Source: Marinitoga aeolica (GTDB lineage Bacteria; Thermotogota; Thermotogae; Petrotogales; Petrotogaceae). Taken from it: 64,000 nt of DNA. Of the stretch, positions 42,414 through 58,780 are shown one piece after another; within the stretch, counting starts at the first letter, position 1; each line of letters starts with the position of its first letter. The notes under the pieces are model-generated. The model searched no databases. It was not told the DNA's origin and was given only the letters and a program-made list of their open reading frames with translations. Location of the stretch: NCBI RefSeq assembly GCF_029910535.1, contig NZ_CP069362.1:62001-126000 (forward strand). Reading direction: 5' to 3'. The position numbers were made by a program, and so were the translations under genes.

Positions 42414-42424
42414 GAGGAGTGGAT

Positions 42425-43084
42425 ATGTTGGAAGCTGTAATATTTGACATGGATGGAGTAATTACGGATACCGTCCCTTTGCATTACAATGCATGGAAGA
42501 AAATGTTCGAAAAACACGGCTATTATTTTGATTTCAATGTATACAAAGAAAAGGTTGATGGAAAACCGAGAATGAAAGGAATTTCATCTGTGGCAACAAA
42601 TGTTGATGAAAAAACATTAAATCAAATGGCTGAGGAGAAACAAAATTATTTTTTAGAATATATTGAGAAAACTCCTCCAGAAATATTTCAAGATACATGG
42701 AATTTCATTAAAGAATTAAAAAAATATAAAATAAAAATAGCAGTAGCCTCATCAAGCAAAAACACAAAAAAAATATTAGAATCTTTAAAAATATATGATG
42801 TTTTTGATACTGTAGTTACGGGATATGACTTTATTCATGGAAAACCTAATCCAGAAATATTTTTAATTGCAGCCAATAGATTAAATGTTTCTCCTGAAAA
42901 TTGTATTGTAATAGAAGATGCAATAGAAGGTATTAATGCCGGAATTAATGCAAAAATGTTTACAATTGGAATAGCAAGACATGGGAATAATAAAGAACTA
43001 TCACATGCAAATTTAGTAGTAAAATCATTGAATGAAATAAAATTAGATAATCTTATTAGCATTTTTCAGGAGGCGAAAAAATGA
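42425..43084 (+). CDS. pgmB: beta-phosphoglucomutase
   Basis: A 219-residue HAD-superfamily enzyme. FDMDGVITDTVPLHYNAWK carries the nucleophile/acid aspartates and the cap-domain start; VASSSKNTKKIL, GKPNPEIFL and IVIEDAIEGINAG are HAD motifs II-IV in beta-PGM form. It turns beta-glucose 1-phosphate into glucose 6-phosphate. This is the step needed after an inverting GH65 phosphorylase, which is the next gene (ATGA overlap). Start is ATG 42425 after GGAGG; the GTG at 42419 is too close. Confidence 0.9.
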   Translation: MLEAVIFDMDGVITDTVPLHYNAWKKMFEKHGYYFDFNVYKEKVDGKPRMKGISSVATNVDEKTLNQMAEEKQNYFLEYIEKTPPEIFQDTWNFIKELKKYKIKIAVASSSKNTKKILESLKIYDVFDTVVTGYDFIHGKPNPEIFLIAANRLNVSPENCIVIEDAIEGINAGINAKMFTIGIARHGNNKELSHANLVVKSLNEIKLDNLISIFQEAKK

Positions 43085-45297
43085 TTCTTTCAGATGAAAA
43101 ATGGTTAATTAAACAAGAAAAATTTGAAGTATCTTCAATACAAGAAACTATATTTACTTTATCAAATGGGTATTTAGGAGTAAGAGGAACTTTTGAAGAT
43201 TTATTTCATAATGAAACCCCTGGTACATATGTAGCTGGAATATTTGATAAGTCTGAAGCACAAGTGAAAGAATTAGTAAATTTACCCTATTTCTGGGGAT
43301 TAAAGATATATTTAAAATATGAATATTTAAACCCCTTTGAGTGTGAAATACTGGATTACAAAAGAATATTAGATATGAAACAAGGTTTATTATATAAAAA
43401 AATGAGATTAAGGGATAAAAAAAATAGAATTACAAAAATAGAAGGATATAGGTTTTTAAGTCATGATAATAGAAATTTAGCTTTAATGAAATATAAAATA
43501 ACTCCAGAGAATTATAAGGATAGAATGACTTTGGAATATTTTATAGATGGAAAAACAGCCAATTCCGTTTCACATCCAAAAGAAAGAGTAAAACATTATT
43601 TTTTAACCAATCATATTGTATCTGATGATTATCTTTATTTAGAAGCTTGTACAAGAGATATAAATCATAAAGTAGGAATACTATCTTCAGTTGAAATTGA
43701 AAATTATCATTCTAAAATTACCAGAAATTATATAGATTTTATTGCACAATCAATTGATATAGATCCAGTTCCACAGAATGAATATACAATAAACATTTAT
43801 ACTAGTATTTTAGATTCAAGAAGATATGATAATCTTTATGAAAATAATATTAAAGAAATAAAAAAAGCAAGAAACATAGGTATAGAAAAACTTTTAGAAA
43901 ATCATAATAAGAAACTTAAAAAACTTTGGGATGTTGCAGATATAAAAATATTTGGAGATGAAAAAGCAGATAAATCACTAAGATTTAATATATTTTCATT
44001 ATTATCTCTTGCAAATCCTGATGATGAAATAGTAAGTATTGGCGCTAAAGGGTTGCATGGAGAAGGATATAAAGGACATGTTTTCTGGGATACAGAGATT
44101 TTTATGTTACCTTTTTATATTTATGAGTATCCAGAAGCTGCTAGATCATTTTTAATGTATAGATATTATACATTAGATAAAGCCAGAGAAAATGCAAGAA
44201 AAAATGGATATAAGGGGGCTCAATATCCATGGGAGTCTGCAGATACTGGTGAAGAAGAAACTCCAAAGTGGGGAGAAGATTATTATGGTAATAAAGTAAG
44301 AATATGGACAGGAGATATAGAATATCATATAACAGCTGATATAGCTTTTGCTATAAGAGAATATTTAAGAGCAACAGAGGACTGGGAATTTTTCTTAAAT
44401 TATGGTGCTGAAATGTTTTTTGAAACTGCAAGGTTTTGGGCTTCTCGGGCTAAATACAATTCTAAAAAAGATAGATATGAAATTAATGAAGTAATTGGTC
44501 CAGATGAATTCCATGAACATGTAAACAATAATTTTTACACCAATTATTTAGCTAAATGGAACATTGATAAAGCATTTTATTATTTAAATATATTAAGAAA
44601 TAAATATCCTTATAATTATGAAAAAATATTAAAAAAAATTAAATTAAATGAAGAAGAATTAGAGAGATGGAAAGATGTATCAAATAAGATTTATATACCC
44701 TGGAATAAAAAATCGCATTTAATAGAACAATTTGAAGGATATTTTAAACTTGAAGATAGGATTATTACGAAATATAATGAAAAAGATATGCCTGAATGGC
44801 CAGAAAATGTTGATTTAACAAAGTTAAACAAATACCAGTTGATAAAACAAGCTGACGTTTTGATGTTAATGCATTTATTATCCGAAGAATTTGATTATGA
44901 AACAAAAAAAATAAATTTTGAATATTATGAAAAAAGAACTATGCACAAATCCTCATTAAGTCCTAGTATGTATGCAATAATGGGATTAGCTGTTGGAGAT
45001 CATTCTAAAGCATATGAATATTTTATGAAAACTGCATTAGTAGATTTGGAAGATAATCAGGGAAATACAGCTTTAGGACTTCATGCTGCAAGCGCCGGTG
45101 GAACGTGGCAAGCTGCTGTATATGGGTTTGGTGGAATGTATATTGATGATAATGAAAAAATAAATTTCAAACCATGGTTACCGTCACATTGGAAAAGTAT
45201 GGAATTTAACGTATATTATAAAAAACAACTATTAAATATAAAAATAACTCAAGATTCTATTAAAATAAATAATTTATCCTCCCTTAATAATAAATAA
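43081..45297 (+). CDS. GH65 alpha-glucoside phosphorylase (maltose/trehalose/kojibiose type)
   Basis: A 738-residue glycoside hydrolase family 65 enzyme. WLIKQEKFEVSSIQETIFTLSNGYLGVRG is the N-terminal beta-domain start. GHVFWDTEIFMLPFY, YPWESADTGEEETP and NEVIGPDEFHEHVNNNFYTNY (Glu476 as predicted general acid) mark the (alpha/alpha)6 catalytic barrel. AGGTWQAAVYGFGGM binds phosphate nearby. It phosphorolyses an alpha-linked glucose disaccharide to beta-glucose 1-phosphate and glucose. Which disaccharide is not readable. Last gene of the operon. Confidence 0.9.
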   Translation: MILSDEKWLIKQEKFEVSSIQETIFTLSNGYLGVRGTFEDLFHNETPGTYVAGIFDKSEAQVKELVNLPYFWGLKIYLKYEYLNPFECEILDYKRILDMKQGLLYKKMRLRDKKNRITKIEGYRFLSHDNRNLALMKYKITPENYKDRMTLEYFIDGKTANSVSHPKERVKHYFLTNHIVSDDYLYLEACTRDINHKVGILSSVEIENYHSKITRNYIDFIAQSIDIDPVPQNEYTINIYTSILDSRRYDNLYENNIKEIKKARNIGIEKLLENHNKKLKKLWDVADIKIFGDEKADKSLRFNIFSLLSLANPDDEIVSIGAKGLHGEGYKGHVFWDTEIFMLPFYIYEYPEAARSFLMYRYYTLDKARENARKNGYKGAQYPWESADTGEEETPKWGEDYYGNKVRIWTGDIEYHITADIAFAIREYLRATEDWEFFLNYGAEMFFETARFWASRAKYNSKKDRYEINEVIGPDEFHEHVNNNFYTNYLAKWNIDKAFYYLNILRNKYPYNYEKILKKIKLNEEELERWKDVSNKIYIPWNKKSHLIEQFEGYFKLEDRIITKYNEKDMPEWPENVDLTKLNKYQLIKQADVLMLMHLLSEEFDYETKKINFEYYEKRTMHKSSLSPSMYAIMGLAVGDHSKAYEYFMKTALVDLEDNQGNTALGLHAASAGGTWQAAVYGFGGMYIDDNEKINFKPWLPSHWKSMEFNVYYKKQLLNIKITQDSIKINNLSSLNNK

Positions 45298-48829: not shown

Positions 48830-48852
48830 GGCTTTGAGCCTTATTCCTTTAT
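48818..48852. terminator. bidirectional terminator between ribE and GH130 gene
   Basis: A perfect 15-bp stem (ATAAAGGAATAAGGC, loop TTTGA, complement) formed by the last codons of both convergent genes. Confidence 0.85.
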
Positions 48853-49734
48853 CCATTTATATACTTCTTCTTTAGAAATAGTAGCTAAAGCAATATAATT
48901 ATCTGCTGCACCATAATAAATATAATATTGATCTTTATATTCAACCATTGCATCAGAAAATACTACCATTGGCACTCCACCAAATTTTTCCCATGGTTCT
49001 TCTGGCTCTAATACAGGTTTTTCAGTTCTTTTTAAAACTTTAGTCGGATCATCTAAATCCAATAACATAAACCCAAGTCTATATGTGAATCTGGGGCCAT
49101 TTTGAACTCCATGATAAAGTAATAACCATCCGTATTCTGTTTTTATTGGTGGCCCAGCAATACCTATTTTCACATCATCCCAATATCCTTCTCTCGGTTT
49201 AGCTATACTTATATAATCTCCCCAATGAATCATATCATCAGAAAAAGCTAACCATATATCTGGTTCCAATCTATGAAACATAACATATTTACCATTTATT
49301 TTTTCTGGTAAAATTGCGGCATCTTTATTTGGAGATTCTGGTAAAACTATTCCATGCCTTTCCCAGGTAAAGAAATTTGTTGTAGATGCCATAGCAACAC
49401 TGATATTAGTTGGAGAATATGCTGTATAACACATATAGTATTTCCCATCAATATATGTAAGTCTTGGGTCTTCTACTCCATACATTTCTGTTATATCTTC
49501 TGGTTCAAACACAGGATTTTCCATCCTATTAAAATGAATTCCATCAGTACTTACAGCATATCCTATTCTTGAAACCATATCTTCACCTTGAGCTCTGTAT
49601 AACATATGGAATAGCTCTCCGTCATATACTACTGCTGGATTAAAAACAAATCTTGATTCCCATAAATGATTTGGATTAGGAGAAAATAATGGGTTCAAAG
49701 GATGCCTTTTTAATTTTAATTCCAATTTTAACAC
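48841..49734 (-). CDS. GH130 beta-mannoside phosphorylase-type enzyme
   Basis: A 297-residue five-bladed propeller enzyme of family GH130. WESRFVFNPAVVYDGELFHMLYRAQGED, MYGVEDPRLTYIDGKYYM (the GVEDPR Asp is the predicted general acid), KDAAILPEKINGKYVMFHRL and KIGIAGPPI are present. Members phosphorolyse beta-mannosides to mannose 1-phosphate; the short length is closer to the beta-1,2-mannoside enzymes than to the about 390-residue mannosylglucose phosphorylases. The linkage is not proven. No signal peptide, so it acts on imported sugar. Last gene of the LacI-2 operon. Confidence 0.85.
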   Translation of the reverse strand: MLKLELKLKRHPLNPLFSPNPNHLWESRFVFNPAVVYDGELFHMLYRAQGEDMVSRIGYAVSTDGIHFNRMENPVFEPEDITEMYGVEDPRLTYIDGKYYMCYTAYSPTNISVAMASTTNFFTWERHGIVLPESPNKDAAILPEKINGKYVMFHRLEPDIWLAFSDDMIHWGDYISIAKPREGYWDDVKIGIAGPPIKTEYGWLLLYHGVQNGPRFTYRLGFMLLDLDDPTKVLKRTEKPVLEPEEPWEKFGGVPMVVFSDAMVEYKDQYYIYYGAADNYIALATISKEEVYKWIKE

Positions 49735-49735
49735 C

Positions 49736-50554
49736 TCACTTTAATGTAATAGAAATTCCCTGTAAGAAATATTTTCTGAATACTAAAAACAAAATAACCA
49801 TAGGTATCGTCTGAATGACTGAACCAGCTAATATTGGTCCAATATAAGCACCATATTCATGATTAAAACTTGCTAATAATACTGACAATGGCATTTTATT
49901 ATAATCCTTCATTACAATCAATGGCCACATAAAATTATCCCATATTCCTATGAAAGTAAATAAAGAAACTATAGAAATAGCTGACTTATTTAAAGGTATC
50001 ATTATTTTAAAAATTATCCATAAATCTGTTGCTCCATCCATTTTTGCAGCTTCTATATAATCATTAGGAGTGCTTTTATAACTTTGTGTTATCATAAAAA
50101 TCCCCCAACCACTCATTATACTTGGTAAAATTAGAGCAGAATATGTATTTAATAAACCAAGGTTTCTTATTAAAATATAAAGTGGAATAGTAAACATAAA
50201 ACCTGGAAAAACCATTTGAAATATTAAAAAATTAAAAATTTTATTTCTTCCTTTAAACCTCAACTTGGCTAAAGCATATGATATTATAGATGAGGTTAAA
50301 ATAACTGACCCGGTTACCGTTATAGAAATAAACAAACTATTTAAAAATGCCCTTATAAATGGTCTTTGCATTTTTTCAGCGCTTTCAAGAATAAATTTAA
50401 AGTGTTCTAATGTAAAATGTGTAGGCCAAAATCTTGTATATATTTCATTTGATGGCTTTAAAGAAGCCATCAATAACCATATATATGGATATAACCATAA
50501 TAATGCTAACCCAAACATAATAATGTGGAAAATAATACTGTTTATTTTTTTCAT
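49736..50554 (-). CDS. ABC sugar transporter permease, MalG-type (GH130 operon)
   Basis: 272 residues with six helices and the EAA loop YIEAAKMDGATDLWIIFKIMIPL. The start chosen, ATG 50554, overlaps the stop of the first permease as ATGA and directly precedes the first helix. A longer in-frame start at 50596 would lie within the previous gene. Confidence 0.88.
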   Translation of the reverse strand: MKKINSIIFHIIMFGLALLWLYPYIWLLMASLKPSNEIYTRFWPTHFTLEHFKFILESAEKMQRPFIRAFLNSLFISITVTGSVILTSSIISYALAKLRFKGRNKIFNFLIFQMVFPGFMFTIPLYILIRNLGLLNTYSALILPSIMSGWGIFMITQSYKSTPNDYIEAAKMDGATDLWIIFKIMIPLNKSAISIVSLFTFIGIWDNFMWPLIVMKDYNKMPLSVLLASFNHEYGAYIGPILAGSVIQTIPMVILFLVFRKYFLQGISITLK

Positions 50555-51429
50555 ACTATTTCCACTTCTCTTTCCAATAATTTTCGTGTTATCCATATAA
50601 TTCCAAAGCTAAAGATTGCTGTAAAAATAGACATTGTTGCTGCATAAGTTGGATCTAACTTCTGAAATGCAGATGTATACATTACCATCATTGGCATTAA
50701 TGTACTTCTCATAGGCCCTCCACCTGTTATCATATATGGTTCTGTAAATATACCAAAAGATAATGAAATTGCAAATACAAGAACCATAACTATAGATGGA
50801 TTTAAAAGAGGTAATGTTATTTTAAAAAATTTTACATATTTATTTGCACCATCAAGTTCTGCAGCTTCATATATACTTTTAGGAATGCTTATTATTCCTG
50901 CATATAAAATTAAACCATAATACCCTATAAATTTCCATACAACAATTAGTGAAATAGAAAACATTGCAAGTTGAGGACTTGTAAACCATGGAATTGTAGT
51001 GTTAAATAACCTATAAACAAGTTGATTTAATGGGCCATTTTCCGCAAATAATTTTGAAAACATTATAGAATATGCCACTCCAGATGAAACATTTGCAACC
51101 AAAAAAGACAATGCTACAAATGTCTTACCATATTTTAATTTACTTAGTGCTAAAGCAAACAATAATGAAAATATTAACACAATTGGTATGTAATACGTTA
51201 AGAAATTCAATACATTAAAAAAGGATTTCCAGAATATTGGATCATATAATATTCTTAAAAAGTTCCGAAATCCTGCAAAGCGCGGGGTTCCAACATATCT
51301 CCACCTAGAAAATGCCAAAATTACGAGCCATATAAATGGGTATCCCCAGAATATAGCTGCATAAACCAAATACGTGGAAGATATAAGAAGCCCTTTTCGG
51401 GCTTCCCTCTTTCTCATTTTTGTAACCAT
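50551..51429 (-). CDS. ABC sugar transporter permease, MalF-type (GH130 operon)
   Basis: A 292-residue permease with six helices. The EAA loop reads YEAAELDGANKYVKFFKITLPLL. Start ATG 51429 follows GGTGATTGT, four bases after the binding-protein stop. The first codons contain a GC-rich hairpin (51387-51405). Confidence 0.88.
   Translation of the reverse strand: MVTKMRKREARKGLLISSTYLVYAAIFWGYPFIWLVILAFSRWRYVGTPRFAGFRNFLRILYDPIFWKSFFNVLNFLTYYIPIVLIFSLLFALALSKLKYGKTFVALSFLVANVSSGVAYSIMFSKLFAENGPLNQLVYRLFNTTIPWFTSPQLAMFSISLIVVWKFIGYYGLILYAGIISIPKSIYEAAELDGANKYVKFFKITLPLLNPSIVMVLVFAISLSFGIFTEPYMITGGGPMRSTLMPMMVMYTSAFQKLDPTYAATMSIFTAIFSFGIIWITRKLLEREVEIV
51387..51405 (-). other. GC-rich hairpin within the first permease codons
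   Basis: On the minus strand GAAGCCC, loop GAAAA, GGGCTTC, then TTATAT: a 7-bp stem about 25-45 bases after the permease ATG. It stands at the same operon position as the hairpins in the other three sugar-transporter operons but inside coding sequence. Confidence 0.55.
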
Positions 51430-51433
51430 ACAA

Positions 51434-52684
51434 TCACCATATTATTCTATTAATCTTTTTTATAGAATTTTTTACTGCAGTTTCTGCATCTGCTTTACCA
51501 TACATAATAGGTTCTATTAAACTAACTGTCATTTCATCCTGAACATCAACAGTTTTTGATATCAATGCTGGTGGAACGGCATATCCTACGTACTTAGCAT
51601 ATTGAGCTGCCAAAGGATTATTCTTAAAGAATTCCTTAAATAAATCATTTGTAAGAAGATCTGATCTTGCAGGTGGCATTTTTGTCATTTCTAACCATAA
51701 TTTATCATTTTCCGGGTTAGAAAATACCCATTTAACAAAATCCCATGCTTCTTTTTGATGCTTTGAAGTCTTAAATATAACCAATCCTTTTGTATCAGCA
51801 AATGTATAAATTGGTTTATTTTCTGGATAATTATCTGGAACTATTGGTGGAGTAATTTCTATATTTTTTAAAACTTTTGGGAATTGTTTTTCTGCATAGG
51901 GTATTTCCCATGGACCTTTTAAACTTCCTAATATTACTCCATTATACAATGGTGCATTTCCTAAATCTACAGCAGTCCATCCGTTTTTAAACATTGTTTC
52001 AAAAAATTTTGCAACTTTAATTCCAGCATCATTATTGTATATGGCTCTATATTTTTTCAAATCAATATATGGTTTTCCTTCACTGGCAGCATAATAATAT
52101 GTTATATAATCAAACCATCTATCCCACCAGTTTCTACCTGCAACAACTCTCATTGTATATTTTTCTTTAGGTACAACAAATTGTTTTGAAAGTTCATAAA
52201 CATCAGAATATGTTCTTGGTGGTTTTTTCCATCCATATTTTTCTAAAATATCTTTTCTCCACCACATTAATATCGGATTCGAATAAATTGGTAATACATA
52301 AGATTTACCCATAAAATTCCAACCTTTAATAATACTATCCATTTTTCTTGCTGCAATTAAATCATTAAATCCTGGTAATTTATTTAACTCAACCAACTGA
52401 TCCAACTCAATTAGCTGGGCAGCAAAACCAGAAAAAATATTAGTACAAATATCAGGTGTTCTTCCAGATGCTATTGCACTCAATATTGCTTCCTCAGAAC
52501 TTCCAGCAGCTGGAATTGTTGTCCATTCGATATCTATATCTGGATGTTGTTGTTCATACTCAGCAACCAATTTTTTCCAGTATGCTTCTTGATTAGGATT
52601 TGGCGCTGTCCAAAATACTATCTTTGTTTTTGCAAATGAAAAAACAAACATTATTACAAACAAAAAAACGAGTAACTTTTTCAT
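51434..52684 (-). CDS. ABC sugar transporter, substrate-binding protein (GH130 operon)
   Basis: A 416-residue family-1 binding protein with a signal peptide (MKKLLVFLFVIMFVFSFAKT). KIVFWTAPNPNQEAYWKKLV, EEAILSAIASGRTPDICTN, GSLKGPWEIPYA and LWLEMTKMPPARSDL are typical. Start is ATG 52684 after AAAGGGGG, three bases after the LacI-2 stop. Likely ligand: a beta-mannoside oligosaccharide, from the GH130 gene. Confidence 0.88.
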   Translation of the reverse strand: MKKLLVFLFVIMFVFSFAKTKIVFWTAPNPNQEAYWKKLVAEYEQQHPDIDIEWTTIPAAGSSEEAILSAIASGRTPDICTNIFSGFAAQLIELDQLVELNKLPGFNDLIAARKMDSIIKGWNFMGKSYVLPIYSNPILMWWRKDILEKYGWKKPPRTYSDVYELSKQFVVPKEKYTMRVVAGRNWWDRWFDYITYYYAASEGKPYIDLKKYRAIYNNDAGIKVAKFFETMFKNGWTAVDLGNAPLYNGVILGSLKGPWEIPYAEKQFPKVLKNIEITPPIVPDNYPENKPIYTFADTKGLVIFKTSKHQKEAWDFVKWVFSNPENDKLWLEMTKMPPARSDLLTNDLFKEFFKNNPLAAQYAKYVGYAVPPALISKTVDVQDEMTVSLIEPIMYGKADAETAVKNSIKKINRIIW

Positions 52685-52686
52685 TT

Positions 52687-53676
52687 TCAAACCCCCTTTG
52701 TGGATTTTCTTTCAATAAACTCTGTAAATAATGAAGTAACATAAGGATGTAAATTTTTCCCATTAATTAATTCTATTACTCTTTCAAGAGCAACATTTCC
52801 CATTTCATACTTAAAAACTTTGACAGTCGACAATGACGGTTCTGTAGAAGCTGAAAACACAATATCATCAAATCCTATTATTTGTACATTTTCTGGAACT
52901 TTAACATTTTTTGATTTAAGAGCATTTAACACCATAATAGCAATAGGATCATTTGATGTAAATACTACCTCTGGCTTCTTAGCTAAAATCAAATCTATAA
53001 TATAATTTATAGATTCCTGAGTTTCTGCAACTTCATAAGTTATAGGTAATAAATTATTTTGTTTCATAGCTAATTCATAACCTTCAAATCTTCTTCTAAA
53101 TCCATAAAATTCTAATGGACCATGTATATGAATAATCCTTTTATAATTTCTTTTTATCATTTTATCAACTACATAATATGCACCGTCAAATCCATTTGAT
53201 ATAATAGCATTTATCTTTTTTCCAACAATATAATTATCAACAAGAACTTTATGAATATTACAATTTAAAATATAATCTGGTATTTTATCAGATCCTAAAA
53301 CTAATATTCCATCACACTCTTTCTTCTTATTAATAAATTCTTCAAAAGTCATTAATATAATTTCTGCTTTGTTTTCATTTGCACCATCATATATACCTTT
53401 TAATACAGTAGAATAAAAATCCATCTCTCCATATTCATTTCTTTTTTTCTCAAGAATATTTTTTATTCTGCTGCTAATTAAAACTCCTATTTTAAAACCA
53501 TATTTTACCTTGGCAAGATGTTTAGCCTGACTTGAAGGTTTATAGTTTAACTCTTCTATTGCTTTTAAAACTTTTATTTTTGTTTTTTCTGAATATTTAC
53601 CTTTATTATTTAATACCCTTGAAACAGTAGCTATTGAAACATTAGCTAATTTAGCAACATCTTCTATATTTGCCAT
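52687..53676 (-). CDS. LacI family transcriptional regulator (GH130 region)
   Basis: A 329-residue regulator. HTH: NIEDVAKLANVSIATVSRVLNN, hinge YKPSSQAKHLA, then a sugar-sensor domain ending in TEFIERKSTKG. Start is ATG 53676 (AGGAG eight bases upstream). It heads the leftward transport operon. TGTAAGCGCTTAACCT lies 15 bases before its start, and an identical site stands before the divergent secreted-protein genes, so it probably controls both directions. Confidence 0.9.
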   Translation of the reverse strand: MANIEDVAKLANVSIATVSRVLNNKGKYSEKTKIKVLKAIEELNYKPSSQAKHLAKVKYGFKIGVLISSRIKNILEKKRNEYGEMDFYSTVLKGIYDGANENKAEIILMTFEEFINKKKECDGILVLGSDKIPDYILNCNIHKVLVDNYIVGKKINAIISNGFDGAYYVVDKMIKRNYKRIIHIHGPLEFYGFRRRFEGYELAMKQNNLLPITYEVAETQESINYIIDLILAKKPEVVFTSNDPIAIMVLNALKSKNVKVPENVQIIGFDDIVFSASTEPSLSTVKVFKYEMGNVALERVIELINGKNLHPYVTSLFTEFIERKSTKGV

Positions 53677-54018
53677 AAAATCACTCCTCATGTAAGCGCT
53701 TAACCTGATTAAATCATATCATATAATCCAACAATATAAAAAAGGAATAAATTCTAACTACATTACATTATGTGAGATTAATAGCAATTATAAATAATTA
53801 GCATTATTTTTCTTAAAAAATCATTGCTAAAAAACAAGAAAAATTTTTTTATTATTAATCAAAAAGTAATAAAAATAGGACATAATAGTCGTTATTTATA
53901 AATATCCTATCATAAAAAGCTGTAATTAATAAATTTCAAACTTTGAATATATATTTTTATGTTATATAATGAAATTTGTAAGCGCTTAACCTAATTTTAT
54001 TAAAGGGGGTATATTTAT
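53677..54018. promoter_or_regulatory. divergent regulatory region with two identical LacI operators
   Basis: A 342-base gene-free stretch. The 16-mer TGTAAGCGCTTAACCT (palindromic core TAAGCGCTTA) occurs at 53691-53706 and 53977-53992 in the same orientation. The right copy follows a promoter: TTTGAA 53942-53947, 17-base spacer, TATAAT 53965-53970. The left copy lies in the leader of the LacI-2 gene. The approximately 270 bases between are A/T-rich, and no open frame of note was seen there. Confidence 0.8.
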
Positions 54019-55368
54019 ATGAAAAAAGGTATTTTAGTAATTTTTTTGATCTTATTAACTATTTTTGCATTAGCAGAAGAAAAGGTTATAGAAGTAAAAA
54101 CTAATCAAATGACGTGGATGGATGTGCCTTACTCTATTTCTTTCTCAAAAATTCTTGACATTGTAGGTGAAGATTTTGAAGCAAATTGGTATTCAATAAG
54201 GGTATTAGACGAAAATGGGAATTTCTTACCTTACCAAATTGATGATATGGATGGGAATCACAGAATTTCCTCATCAGATGTATTACTATTTACATTTAAA
54301 AAATATGCAAAAATAGTTATCTCTGATGACTCAAGCATGGATCTAATGTCTTTTGATCCGTATTTTACAGTTAAAAAGGAAAATGACGAATATTTAATTA
54401 ACTCAAAAGATTTTGATGTAAAAATTAATAAATATGGATTAGCTAATTTTGTAAGGTACAAAGATATTAAAGGGACAATATATAACGAATTAGGTACAGC
54501 CAGAATTGCAGGATGGTCAGGAAGCACATTTTATGTAAATGGAAAATTAGGAAAACACGTTGAAATGACATCTTCTGGTTTAACAATAGATAATGTTCGT
54601 GTTTTAAAAGCAGGTCCAATTGCTGTAACAGTTGTTTCTGATTTATACTCAAAATTATTACCTGGTTTAAATCAACATATAGTTACACATATATTCAAAA
54701 CCGGAGACGTATTAGTTGAAAATACATTCACATTTACTAATTATGTAGATATTATGAAATTGCAGGTAATGGCTACAGCACCTATCACAAGTATTGATGA
54801 TAATGCTCTTCATATTTTACCTATGTTTAGAAGAATGGTTTGGGCAGAACAAATTAATGGTACTCCTCTTGATTATTGGACTCAAAGAAATGCTGTTAAA
54901 TACGTTAATGGAAAACCATATATAGAATTTTCTGCTATTGATTCTATGAAACCATTATGGTGGGGGGCTACCTATGCATTTGTTTCTGAAGAAAACTGGA
55001 GAGCAAACTTTTCTCCAAAATATGGCTTAGGTGCAGCTGAAATATTACCAGAAAAACCTATTGTTTATTCTGATTTAAAAGATTTTGTATTTCATGATTT
55101 CTGGTTCTATGAAAGTAGAGAATTTAGAGATGGTATATTTAGATGGTTACCAGGAGAAATGGATAATTATGAAGCAACAAAAGGTGTTTTCCCACCTTAT
55201 TCTGAAGAAAATGTAGGAAAATATTGGATGGCTAAATTCAAAGCTGGTGATGTAGTAAAATATAATAGATATTATTCAATTTTTCAATCAAGGGATACCA
55301 ATGAAGCAATAGATTTCTTAGAAAAAAGAACTGCTGAAATTCAAGGAGTGCATATTATAGAAGAATGA
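54019..55368 (+). CDS. exported protein with EF-hand-like loop, probable polysaccharide-active, unknown
   Basis: A 449-residue protein with a signal peptide (MKKGILVIFLILLTIFALAE). Near residue 75, after YQIDD, the loop DMDGNHRISSSD matches the 12-residue calcium-binding pattern DxDxNxxIxxxD. The central part is a beta-sandwich (residues about 130-300), with aromatic-rich blocks later (PLWWGATYAFVSEENW, FHDFWFYESREFRDGIF). No catalytic family recognised. Operator and promoter place it under LacI-2; a polysaccharide-binding or lyase/esterase-like role is inference. A terminator hairpin follows. Confidence 0.65.
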   Translation: MKKGILVIFLILLTIFALAEEKVIEVKTNQMTWMDVPYSISFSKILDIVGEDFEANWYSIRVLDENGNFLPYQIDDMDGNHRISSSDVLLFTFKKYAKIVISDDSSMDLMSFDPYFTVKKENDEYLINSKDFDVKINKYGLANFVRYKDIKGTIYNELGTARIAGWSGSTFYVNGKLGKHVEMTSSGLTIDNVRVLKAGPIAVTVVSDLYSKLLPGLNQHIVTHIFKTGDVLVENTFTFTNYVDIMKLQVMATAPITSIDDNALHILPMFRRMVWAEQINGTPLDYWTQRNAVKYVNGKPYIEFSAIDSMKPLWWGATYAFVSEENWRANFSPKYGLGAAEILPEKPIVYSDLKDFVFHDFWFYESREFRDGIFRWLPGEMDNYEATKGVFPPYSEENVGKYWMAKFKAGDVVKYNRYYSIFQSRDTNEAIDFLEKRTAEIQGVHIIEE

Positions 55369-55387
55369 TTAAAAGGATATTAAATAG

Positions 55388-55414
55388 AGGGCACATTTAA
55401 ATGTGCCCTTTTTT
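55388..55414 (+). terminator. intra-operon terminator hairpin
   Basis: A perfect palindrome (AGGGCACATTT and complement, 55388-55409) followed by T5, eleven bases before the ribosome site (GGAGGG) of the next gene. Probably lowers expression of the downstream gene relative to the upstream one. Confidence 0.8.
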
Positions 55415-55425
55415 GGAGGGATATA

Positions 55426-57612
55426 ATGAAAAAATTTATAATTTCAATTTTGATACTACTGACTTCTGCAAGTATGTTTTCTATTGATATAAATTTAAAC
55501 CATCTTGAATTTCTTAGAGATACTTTTAAAATTGGAAACAAAAAAGTAATAGGATATTGGATATACGCAGATAAATATGGAAATAAGTATATTCACAAAG
55601 AGGCTCCTGGTGAAGGAGTAATATGTGTGGATGATGTTGCAAGGGTAGCAATTTTTTATACGGATTTATATAAATTGGATAAAAAGGAATTTTATTATGT
55701 TCGTGCTAAAGAAGCTTTAGAATTTATTTTAGCAATGCAAGATTATGATGGCGATTTTTATAATTTTATATTTAAAGATGGTACGATAAATAAATTAGGT
55801 ATTACCAGTAAAAAGTCAGCTAGTTGGTGGGCTGCAAGAGCCTTTTGGGCTATTAGTAATGCTATAAATGTGTTTCCTGACAAAAAATTAAATGATTATT
55901 TGATAAAATCAGCTAAAAAAGTGAAAGCGATTTTAATAAATAATTTAGACTCAAATTATTTATTAAACAAAAGTACAGATGTTACTTCTGTTTTTTTATT
56001 AGGATTAGCTAAATATTACTATTATTCTAAAAACAAAAAAGATTTATCTTATATAAATCTATTATCAAATGCAATTATAAAATATCAGGTTAATGATGGG
56101 CCATATTCAGGAGTATATAATGAAGGTAATAAAAATCAATTTTTATGGCATTCTTGGGGTTCACGCCAGGGTGAAGCATTAATTGAAGCATATAAAATCA
56201 CCAAAAATGAAGAATATCTACGATCAGTTGAAAAATATGTGAGATTTTATGATTTATTATTATCAATAGGACCAGTATATGAGATAAGGAATTATATAAA
56301 GAAATATCCCTATTTATCTTATGGATTAGAAGCAATAATATCTACATTATCAAAGCTTTATTCTATTACTCAAAAAGATATATATGCTATTAAAGCTTAT
56401 TTGTTTGCTTCTTTTTATTCAGGAAATAATCATTTGAATTTTCCTATGTTAGGTAAAAATGGTGAAGGATACGACGGAATGCATTCGGTTTATATAAATC
56501 AAAATGCTGGTGCAGAATCTACAGTATCTGCTTTATTAGCTTTAACGAGATTAAAGAAACTCCCTTCAAAATTTGAAAAGTATTATTATGCCAAAACAAT
56601 AGGTGGAAGTAAAGCTCAATTATTAGAAGCAGAAAAAATGGATACTGGCATATATTATTTTGAATTAGAAAATAGAGGAAATATTCAGATAAAAACTAAT
56701 GAAAAAATTGCATTGAAAACATTTATTGATTTTTCTGGGGAATATTATATATACTTAATAGGGGATATTCCATATTCTAAAATAAAAATTTATTCAGGAA
56801 AAAACAAGGTGACGACATATAAGAAATTTATTCCTATAACATTAGAAAGTGGAAAATTAACAATTTCAATTACACCAGAAAACAATGAATTTTTATATCT
56901 TGATCAAATATTGTTGATTCCAAAAAAATATAATTATATAATAAAAGTCGGTAATAAATATTTCTCAGTATCAGATGATGAAATAAAAAATATTGAATAT
57001 AAAGAAACAAAAGTTGAAATCAAAAATATTATTAATATAAAGCCAGATATGGAAACCTTAGATGACTATAAAATAGTAAATTTAAATCAATATTTTAATA
57101 ATGATGGAATTACAACTTTTTCTAAAAGAAAAGAAGGAAATTTTGATAATCCTGATGGAGTATTTGGCGCAAAATATCCAGCAGAAGAAATACAAAAGTA
57201 TTTGAAGAATAATATTTTAATGTATGATAATATACCTTTTAAAATTAAACTTGAAGGTAATGATAATTTGGTTTGTTCTGGACAAAAGATTGAATTTAAT
57301 AATATTGAAGGGAAAAAGTTGTATATATTAGGTTCTTCAGAACATGGTAATTACAGTGAAAAATTCTTTATAGAATATAGTGATGGAAATATTGAAGAAA
57401 AAATATTGAATTTTTCAGATTGGTGTCAAAATCCAATTTATAATGAAGATATAGCTATAGATACTATATATAGATATAATGGAATAGGAATCAAAGAAAA
57501 TCTTAACCCAAAAATATATCTTAATTCATTTAATCTAAATGGAAAGAAAATTAAAAATATATATTTACCTAAAAAACCTACAATGCATATTTTTGCTATA
57601 ACAATAAGATAA
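55426..57612 (+). CDS. exported six-hairpin-glycosidase-like protein with C-terminal beta domains
   Basis: A 728-residue protein with a signal peptide (MKKFIISILILLTSASMFS). Residues of about 30-390 are helical repeats resembling an (alpha/alpha)6 toroid: GEGVICVDDVARVAIFYTDL, ASWWAARAFWAISNAI, WHSWGSRQGEALIEAY, QNAGAESTVSALLAL. Residues of about 390-500 look like a CBM6/35-type sandwich. From about 555, DNPDGVFGAKYPAEEI, VCSGQKIEF and KPTMHIFAITI mark a second sandwich seen in some glycosidases. No GH family assigned. It probably cuts or binds an external glycan for the LacI-2 system. Confidence 0.65.
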   Translation: MKKFIISILILLTSASMFSIDINLNHLEFLRDTFKIGNKKVIGYWIYADKYGNKYIHKEAPGEGVICVDDVARVAIFYTDLYKLDKKEFYYVRAKEALEFILAMQDYDGDFYNFIFKDGTINKLGITSKKSASWWAARAFWAISNAINVFPDKKLNDYLIKSAKKVKAILINNLDSNYLLNKSTDVTSVFLLGLAKYYYYSKNKKDLSYINLLSNAIIKYQVNDGPYSGVYNEGNKNQFLWHSWGSRQGEALIEAYKITKNEEYLRSVEKYVRFYDLLLSIGPVYEIRNYIKKYPYLSYGLEAIISTLSKLYSITQKDIYAIKAYLFASFYSGNNHLNFPMLGKNGEGYDGMHSVYINQNAGAESTVSALLALTRLKKLPSKFEKYYYAKTIGGSKAQLLEAEKMDTGIYYFELENRGNIQIKTNEKIALKTFIDFSGEYYIYLIGDIPYSKIKIYSGKNKVTTYKKFIPITLESGKLTISITPENNEFLYLDQILLIPKKYNYIIKVGNKYFSVSDDEIKNIEYKETKVEIKNIINIKPDMETLDDYKIVNLNQYFNNDGITTFSKRKEGNFDNPDGVFGAKYPAEEIQKYLKNNILMYDNIPFKIKLEGNDNLVCSGQKIEFNNIEGKKLYILGSSEHGNYSEKFFIEYSDGNIEEKILNFSDWCQNPIYNEDIAIDTIYRYNGIGIKENLNPKIYLNSFNLNGKKIKNIYLPKKPTMHIFAITIR

Positions 57613-57636
57613 AGGGCAAATGCCCTTTATCTTATT
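57603..57636. terminator. bidirectional terminator
   Basis: A perfect 16-bp stem (AATAAGATAAAGGGCA, loop AA, complement) spanning the ends of both convergent genes, with T-rich outer parts in each direction. Confidence 0.85.
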
Positions 57637-58625
57637 AAATCATCTATATATATTCGTTTTTCCCCATTTGACTTTATTGCAGCTTCAATAAAAGCTAAAT
57701 CTTTTAATGCTTCTTCTGTATTACCTAAATTATTTTCCTTACCATTTATGACTTCATAAAAATCTTCAAATTCCTTTTTGTATGAATTTTCATCATGAGT
57801 CTTATAATCGTCATAATATTCTATAACTTTATCTTTATATTTTACAACTTTAATTATATCATCTTCAAATATTATATCTCCTAATTCTCCTTTTATCATT
57901 AATACATTTTTCCCATCCAAGGCATATGAAACATTATAATTGCCAAGTATTCCATTTTCAAATTCAAAGGTAGAAGATAATAAATCAGGACCTCCAAGAT
58001 AATCTGTTATATTTTTTACTGAACCATATACCCATTTTATATCTCCAAATATTTTCTTCATACTTGCTACATGGTGAACTCCTGCATCAGATATAAATCC
58101 TCCAATGTGCTCTGGGTTTTGTCTCCATGGGGTATTGGCATATTTATTATCTTTTGACATATAAATCCATAAATTCCATTGTAAATAATAAACTTCACCT
58201 ATTTTTGAGGTTAATTCTTTTATTTTATCATAAGCAGAAAAATGTCTATAGTTTTCAGCAATATAAACAACATTTTTATATCTTCTTGATAATTCTACAA
58301 TTTTTTTACCCTCTTCTACATTTACTGATATAGGTTTTTCGCAAATAACATTTACACCTTTTTTTAATGCTTTTTCAATAAATTCATAATTTAATTGTAC
58401 AGGTAATGCTAAATCAACAGCCTCTACATTATCTAACAATTCATCATATGAATCATAAATTTTTGGATTATTATTCAAATAATTAGAAAATCTTATTGCT
58501 TTTTCTTTTGTTCTATTAAAAAGTGCAACAATTTCAAACTTATTTTCTAATTCCAATAATCCAGGCAAATGTAAATCCCTAGCCGCTATTCCGGTTCCAA
58601 CAATACCTAATTTAATTTTTTTCAT
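57627..58625 (-). CDS. Gfo/Idh/MocA family dehydrogenase
   Basis: A 332-residue NAD(P)-dependent oxidoreductase. LGIVGTGIAARDLHLPGL (Rossmann glycines), VICEKPISVN (the conserved EKP) and GGFISDAGVHHVASM (active-site Asp and His) are present. These enzymes oxidise or epimerise sugars or inositols; the substrate is unknown. Start is ATG 58625 after GGGGGTGAT. Single gene between sugar transport systems, so sugar metabolism is the likely role. Confidence 0.87.
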   Translation of the reverse strand: MKKIKLGIVGTGIAARDLHLPGLLELENKFEIVALFNRTKEKAIRFSNYLNNNPKIYDSYDELLDNVEAVDLALPVQLNYEFIEKALKKGVNVICEKPISVNVEEGKKIVELSRRYKNVVYIAENYRHFSAYDKIKELTSKIGEVYYLQWNLWIYMSKDNKYANTPWRQNPEHIGGFISDAGVHHVASMKKIFGDIKWVYGSVKNITDYLGGPDLLSSTFEFENGILGNYNVSYALDGKNVLMIKGELGDIIFEDDIIKVVKYKDKVIEYYDDYKTHDENSYKKEFEDFYEVINGKENNLGNTEEALKDLAFIEAAIKSNGEKRIYIDDLIR

Positions 58626-58780
58626 TTTATCACCCCCATTATATTTTATCATATATTTTAATTGTAATATTTTATAAAAATATTATATATTTGTTATTAA
58701 TTTAATATAATTATTCCTCGTTAATGATAATCAGCGATATTTATACTTTATTCAAATTGTAAAGTGTGCTTTAATTAAAA

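Follow-up and report, generated by a model that had tools for sequence, protein, structure and literature searches.

Two exported proteins accompany a candidate beta-1,2-mannoside phosphorolysis locus in Marinitoga aeolica and other Thermotogota

To understand how an exported protein pair relates to sugar import and breakdown in Thermotogota, we analysed a stretch of 64,000 nucleotides from Marinitoga aeolica, a heat-loving bacterium of marine type (henceforth the window; positions 62,001-126,000 of contig NZ_CP069362.1, from a low-GC genome of 2.44 Mb and about 27% GC), which contains a carbohydrate locus at window positions 48841-57612. Two divergent arms flank one intergenic region: the first encodes a LacI-family regulator, a sugar-binding protein and two permeases of an ATP-binding cassette (ABC) importer and a phosphorylase of glycoside hydrolase (GH) family 130, and the second encodes a pair of exported proteins, here named P449 (449 residues) and P728 (728 residues). 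On balance, we favour reading it as a beta-1,2-mannoside utilisation locus, in which cutting outside the cell, import and phosphorolysis would stand under one LacI regulator. What is new here is the narrowing to beta-1,2-mannosides and the recognition of a cross-phylum family of toroid proteins, including P728, as the constant exported partner. The features of the locus are as follows.

48841-49734, minus strand: cytoplasmic GH130 enzyme of the beta-1,2-mannoside phosphorylase type (Pfam GH130, E = 1.4e-96)
49736-50596, minus strand: ABC permease 2 (Pfam BPD_transp_1)
50551-51429, minus strand: ABC permease 1 (Pfam BPD_transp_1)
51434-52690, minus strand: sugar-binding protein of the ABC importer (Pfam SBP_bac_1, E = 4.2e-35)
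52687-53676, minus strand: LacI-family regulator (Pfam LacI and Peripla_BP_3; start set from the ribosome-binding site and MANIEDV)
53691-53710, plus strand: operator copy 1, upstream of the LacI arm (direct repeat, 95% identical to copy 2)
53943-53970, plus strand: promoter-like TTGAAT-16-TATAAT of the secreted arm (consensus scan only, 10/12)
53977-53996, plus strand: operator copy 2, upstream of the secreted arm (direct repeat of copy 1)
54019-55368, plus strand: P449, exported, 449 residues, with an EF-hand-like loop and a predicted beta-supersandwich (AlphaFold2 model)
55426-57612, plus strand: P728, exported, 728 residues, with a toroid (about residues 8-385), a middle region and an AziU2-like domain (about residues 540-728)

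Every gene that the original prediction had placed in this co-regulated locus was recovered at its coordinates and in its family (Pfam), as were the two arms and their shared operators; the sole correction concerns the start of LacI, first called at 53691 and here set to 53676 from the ribosome-binding site AGGAGTGAT and the following MANIEDV.

The family match of the GH130 enzyme is full length (residues 7-296), and among characterised proteins it is closest to phosphorylases of beta-1,2-mannosides, namely the beta-1,2-mannobiose phosphorylase 7FIP (54% identity, E = 1e-89) and the 1,2-beta-oligomannan phosphorylase 9FJ8 (49%, E = 1.5e-86). It scores 363 bits against NCBIfam NF052550, below the cut-off of 450, and we do not claim equivalog status. 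At the GPP motif it reads Ile-Ala-Gly-Pro-Pro where BT3780-type hydrolases carry Glu; given that the hydrolase-type Glu is missing, it is most likely a phosphorylase. The prediction of a mannoside substrate thus appears sound as to class but can be narrowed to beta-1,2 linkages, since a GH130 of this type makes beta-1,4-mannan, glucomannan and N-glycans less likely. A beta-1,4-mannan reading was rejected, TM1225-type GH130 proteins being far more distant (E = 1.7e-39). Two further GH130 groups, considered together with the window enzyme, point to beta-1,2-mannose: the GH130 of Yersinia toroid loci, which matches the beta-1,2-mannobiose phosphorylase Lin0857 (E = 6.5e-110), and an exported second GH130, found in several Petrotogales-type loci, which resembles the beta-1,2-mannosidase BT3780 and carries its GPP-site Glu. 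The latter proteins (L061:3077-4054, also in loci L062, L063, L064, L065, L076 and L092), encoded in tandem with the cytoplasmic GH130, are probable secreted beta-1,2-mannosidases.

We found a 20-base repeat with one mismatch upstream of each arm (TGTAAGCGCTTAACCTGATT at 53691-53710 and TGTAAGCGCTTAACCTAATT at 53977-53996), in agreement with the shared operators proposed earlier. Its 14-base core is TGTAAGCGCTTAAC. The 2.44 Mb genome has exactly two copies of this core, both at this locus, while 0.009 are expected from base composition. Copy 2 starts 6 bases past the TATAAT-like hexamer of the promoter predicted by consensus scan, a position that fits repression. When 40 neighbourhood loci were scanned for LacI-like palindromes outside genes, most loci had TGTAAGCGCTTACA-like sites in front of the same genes or between them, and nearer relatives (e.g., L055, L056, L057, L058 and L059) had them in pairs. 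Given this recurrence, the operator is conserved and not a chance repeat, and LacI would repress both arms through its two near-identical copies.

P728 residues 8-381 align with the whole toroid of Yersinia YPO2471, a putative exported protein of known structure (PDB 7TEM; phmmer E = 5.5e-29, profile E = 3.2e-64). This upholds the (alpha/alpha) toroid of the original prediction. Residues ~540-728 form a separate AziU2-like domain (profile E = 2.3e-13), and the middle region (~390-540) is a putative beta domain. YPO2471 lacks both this C-terminal domain and the middle region of P728. AziU2 itself, from the azinomycin pathway, is alike only over the C-terminal ~180 residues of P728 and is a subunit in small-molecule biosynthesis, whereas in P728 the domain sits on an exported protein. 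Members of the P728 family weakly match other toroid families (GH88, C5-epimerase, GH127 and GH9), the window P728 falling short of the Pfam gathering score for GH88 (16.1 vs 26.6 bits); indeed, neither exported protein reaches a curated Pfam cut-off, as expected for a pair described as having no recognised catalytic family. Across 105 toroid sequences, ten residues never vary (E63, D69, D70, R73, N113, R138, N335, D350, N358 and E364). This invariance favours an enzyme, and P728 is probably a secreted depolymerase.

The toroid family extends well beyond Thermotogota. A genome scan was seeded with YPO2471 and the Thermotogota toroids, and the best 80 loci by similarity to YPO2471 were retained as a sample, which is not a measure of the breadth of the family. 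These loci came from Yersinia, Serratia, Rahnella, Ignavibacteria, Bacteroidota, Calditrichota and one alphaproteobacterial assembly; a GH130 gene lay at most four genes from the toroid in 69 of them, and both permeases were present in 55. Yersinia loci read LacI, binding protein, permease, permease, GH13, GH130, DUF1861, porin-like protein, toroid; ignavibacterial loci add a GH2 protein with mannosidase domains (GH130 and such GH2 proteins were confirmed with Pfam for representative toroid loci). The importer is related too, with window proteins 43-60% identical to their enterobacterial counterparts: 43-47% for the binding protein, 56-60% for permease 1 (Yersinia, Serratia and Rahnella) and 52-57% for permease 2 (the same genera), the last being 60% identical to the permease of the alphaproteobacterial toroid locus. 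The window GH130 and the Lin0857-like enzyme of Yersinia belong to different types, so that toroids of one family, in each case with a related importer, are found beside two distinct types of beta-1,2-mannoside phosphorylase. Some toroids lie in very long open frames (L102:1430-8245, 2272 aa; L103:9935-14413, 1493 aa), and the L102 frame has a GH2 mannosidase-like enzyme at its end, in support of the mannoside link. In Yersinia-type loci a DUF1861 protein (L097:7758-8696, E = 4.3e-125) stands beside GH130.

Within Thermotogota (101 genomes returned by a search for relatives, all of the window's class), P728 was found in 65 genomes and P449 in 64, with both in 63 and neither in 35; the three discordant genomes comprise two incomplete assemblies and one decayed locus. 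In two loci the copies are broken, through assembly error or gene decay: P728 is spread over several frames in L093 (genome G003), and the LacI, binding protein and P449 end of L087 (G060) is decayed. A close GH130 was present in 60 of the 63 genomes with the pair, the other three being fragmented assemblies, and the association between pair and close GH130 had a Fisher p of 6e-7, with counts uncorrected for kinship. P449 and P728 were almost always encoded near the close GH130. Gene order varies while membership is steady: the arms are divergent in the window, whereas in L072 and L073 the genes are collinear (LacI, binding protein, P449, P728, permease, permease, GH130), which puts P449 and P728 within the importer operon, after the binding protein and ahead of the permeases. 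In L069 and L070 the order is binding protein, P449, LacI, permease, permease, GH130, GH4, P728. Importer and GH130 also occur alone, for instance in L075, from the same genus as the window. This distribution fits a core unit for import and phosphorolysis with an optional secreted module. The two exported proteins do form a pair, as originally described, in 63 of 101 genomes; the pair is not fixed everywhere, however, as the toroid is a GH130 partner across phyla and P449 was found only in Thermotogota. An exported alkaline phosphatase-like gene lies between LacI and P449 in one locus (L058:7542-8852).

As far as sampled, P449 was found only in Thermotogota; no homologue appeared in the 80 toroid loci or in 14 whole genomes from elsewhere, although the whole-genome search had no positive control and this absence is provisional. 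P449 homologues align over their full length with many invariant charged residues, and the EF-hand-like loop that had been noted in this protein is present and conserved (D76, D78, N80, S84 and D87). A search of the PDB with the P449 profile returned only chance EF-hand matches. None of the families matched by 24 P449 members at E 0.1 was the PL26 Pfam domain; 12 of the 24 weakly touched DUF4861 (PF16153; best E = 0.0021), for which the window P449 misses the gathering score (14 vs 22.3 bits). Folding from the single sequence was useless (predicted local distance difference test, pLDDT, 37), but an AlphaFold2 model built from a 24-row alignment was confident (pLDDT 90.4, predicted template modelling score 0.89). 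Its best full-length structural match was the first ~500 residues of the PL26 exo-rhamnogalacturonan lyase (5XQG, 5XQJ; Z = 15.5 over 337 residues, root-mean-square deviation 4.9, 11% identity), from which P449 differs in lacking the remainder of the chain and any Pfam match to the family. Beta domains of GH38, beta-galactosidase and galactose mutarotase(-like) proteins scored close to this match. The structure search proposed for P449 therefore names a fold, a predicted beta-supersandwich with an N-terminal barrel, but no function, because the scores lie so close together.

In PL26, supersandwich-type domains precede the toroid within one chain, and in the window the P449 gene precedes that of P728. 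This correspondence is a lead for a two-chain enzyme whose PL26-like halves would lie on separate chains. Two observations weaken the idea: the genes lie apart in L069 and L070, and there are toroids that have no P449. A fusion of the two proteins, which could have supported a split enzyme, was sought in the 101 genomes and no fused frame was found (open frames matching P449 were at most 487 aa). Most likely, P449 acts on the same glycan at the cell surface, where it would be either a second enzyme active on carbohydrates or a partner providing the toroid with a supersandwich wall.

Taken together, the predicted functions support the proposed scheme of a secreted module, import and phosphorolysis for mannosides. 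The exported P728, helped by P449, would act outside the cell and break a glycan that contains beta-1,2-mannose into oligosaccharides; these would be imported, judging by the protein families, through the binding protein and the two permeases with an ATPase encoded elsewhere; and the cytoplasmic GH130, given its 54% identity to 7FIP, would split off terminal beta-1,2-mannose with phosphate, yielding mannose 1-phosphate. In its most specific form, which we regard as rather doubtful, P728 would represent a new glycoside hydrolase family of secreted endo-beta-1,2-mannanases (in Thermotogota, enterobacteria, Ignavibacteria and Bacteroidota), acting in Thermotogota as a two-protein enzyme with P449 as the supersandwich half.

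Several observations weigh against this interpretation. GH130 is kept in 18 of the 35 genomes without P449 and P728, which means that the pathway can do without the pair, and the specificity of GH130, drawn from 54% identity, may be wrong. We know of no activity for any toroid or P449 relative, and a search of the accessible literature gave none; the same search found no paper on YPO2471, DUF4861, AziU2, the PL26 structure or endo-beta-1,2-mannanase. Finally, GH4 AglA-type alpha-glucosidases occur in some Thermotogota loci and GH13 in Yersinia and other enterobacterial loci, meaning that the glycan may not be pure beta-1,2-mannan; their presence suggests alpha-glucose in the same glycan.

Other explanations were also considered. 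One is that the toroid cuts a non-mannosidic bond in a mixed glycan of alpha-glucose and beta-mannose (e.g., a bacterial exopolysaccharide), with GH130 only finishing the fragment. The GH4 genes (L055, L069, L070, L087 and L091), the GH13 genes of Yersinia-type loci and the weak toroid matches to GH88, C5-epimerase, GH127 and GH9 all agree with such a glycan; yet alpha-glucosidases are not universal in these loci while GH130 is, and the exported beta-1,2-mannosidase-like GH130 of Petrotogales-type loci indicates beta-1,2-mannose outside the cell, and we consider this explanation unlikely. Alternatively, P449 and P728 may bind glycans or serve as scaffolds at the cell surface, capturing beta-1,2-mannosides for the importer without cutting them. 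The resemblance of the P449 model to accessory beta domains of GH38 and beta-galactosidases would suit this role, as would the lack of a Pfam catalytic family for either protein, but the toroids have what looks like an active site, with five acids, two Arg and several Asn strictly conserved in 105 sequences from different phyla, and P449 likewise has many invariant charged residues; we consider pure capture rather unlikely.

A different substrate altogether would be mannosyl-di-myo-inositol phosphate (MDIP), a heat protectant of Thermotogales whose second mannose is beta-1,2-linked, which the exported proteins might release or bind for scavenging. Thermotoga is known to contain MDIP and MMDIP with beta-1,2-mannose (PMC3124967), and the alkaline phosphatase inserted in L058 would have a place in such a pathway. 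However, the same set of toroid, GH130 and importer occurs in Yersinia, Ignavibacteria and Bacteroidota, whereas within Bacteria the MDIP-making enzyme is confined to Thermotogales and Aquificales (PMC3124967). The spread to enterobacteria and Bacteroidota makes MDIP very improbable as the main substrate.

Among known systems, the Thermoanaerobacter Teth514_1788/1789 cluster, for which import and phosphorolysis of 1,2-beta-oligomannan have been proposed, resembles the window locus in having GH130 enzymes of the same type (54% and 49% identity) next to an ABC importer; it differs in carrying GH5, GDP-mannose synthesis and GT4 genes, and neither LacI nor a toroid/P449 pair appears in the gene list published for it (PMC4264767). 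In Thermotoga maritima, the UgpR/TM1856 regulon, which includes the ABC importer UgpEFG, has been catalogued under hypothetical sugar utilisation (PMC3750489), and we suspect that it is the orthologous core locus; the Thermotoga-like loci L083 and L084 differ in having a GH38-like gene and no P449 or P728.

Two neighbouring regions were assigned outside the locus. A Gfo/Idh/MocA dehydrogenase gene (57627-58652), convergent with P728 and with inositol dehydrogenase-like scores, was dropped as a member, since relatives have other genes beside P728. At 42419-45297, separated from the locus by riboflavin genes, a beta-phosphoglucomutase-like gene and a GH65 gene follow two permeases; the best NCBIfam matches of GH65, under cut-off in either case, were kojibiose hydrolase and a domain model for family 65, and this is a probable alpha-glucoside phosphorylase locus.

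Beta-1,2-mannoside phosphorylases have already been characterised, but to our knowledge no enzyme is established that cuts a polymer to release the oligosaccharides on which they act. A direct candidate for this polymer-cutting enzyme is the toroid family, found beside two types of these phosphorylases in several phyla, and PDB 7TEM offers a ready structure on which to test it. If the proposed pathway is correct, it would assign a substrate to a sugar locus that is widespread in Thermotogota, and a function to each of two protein families that have none.

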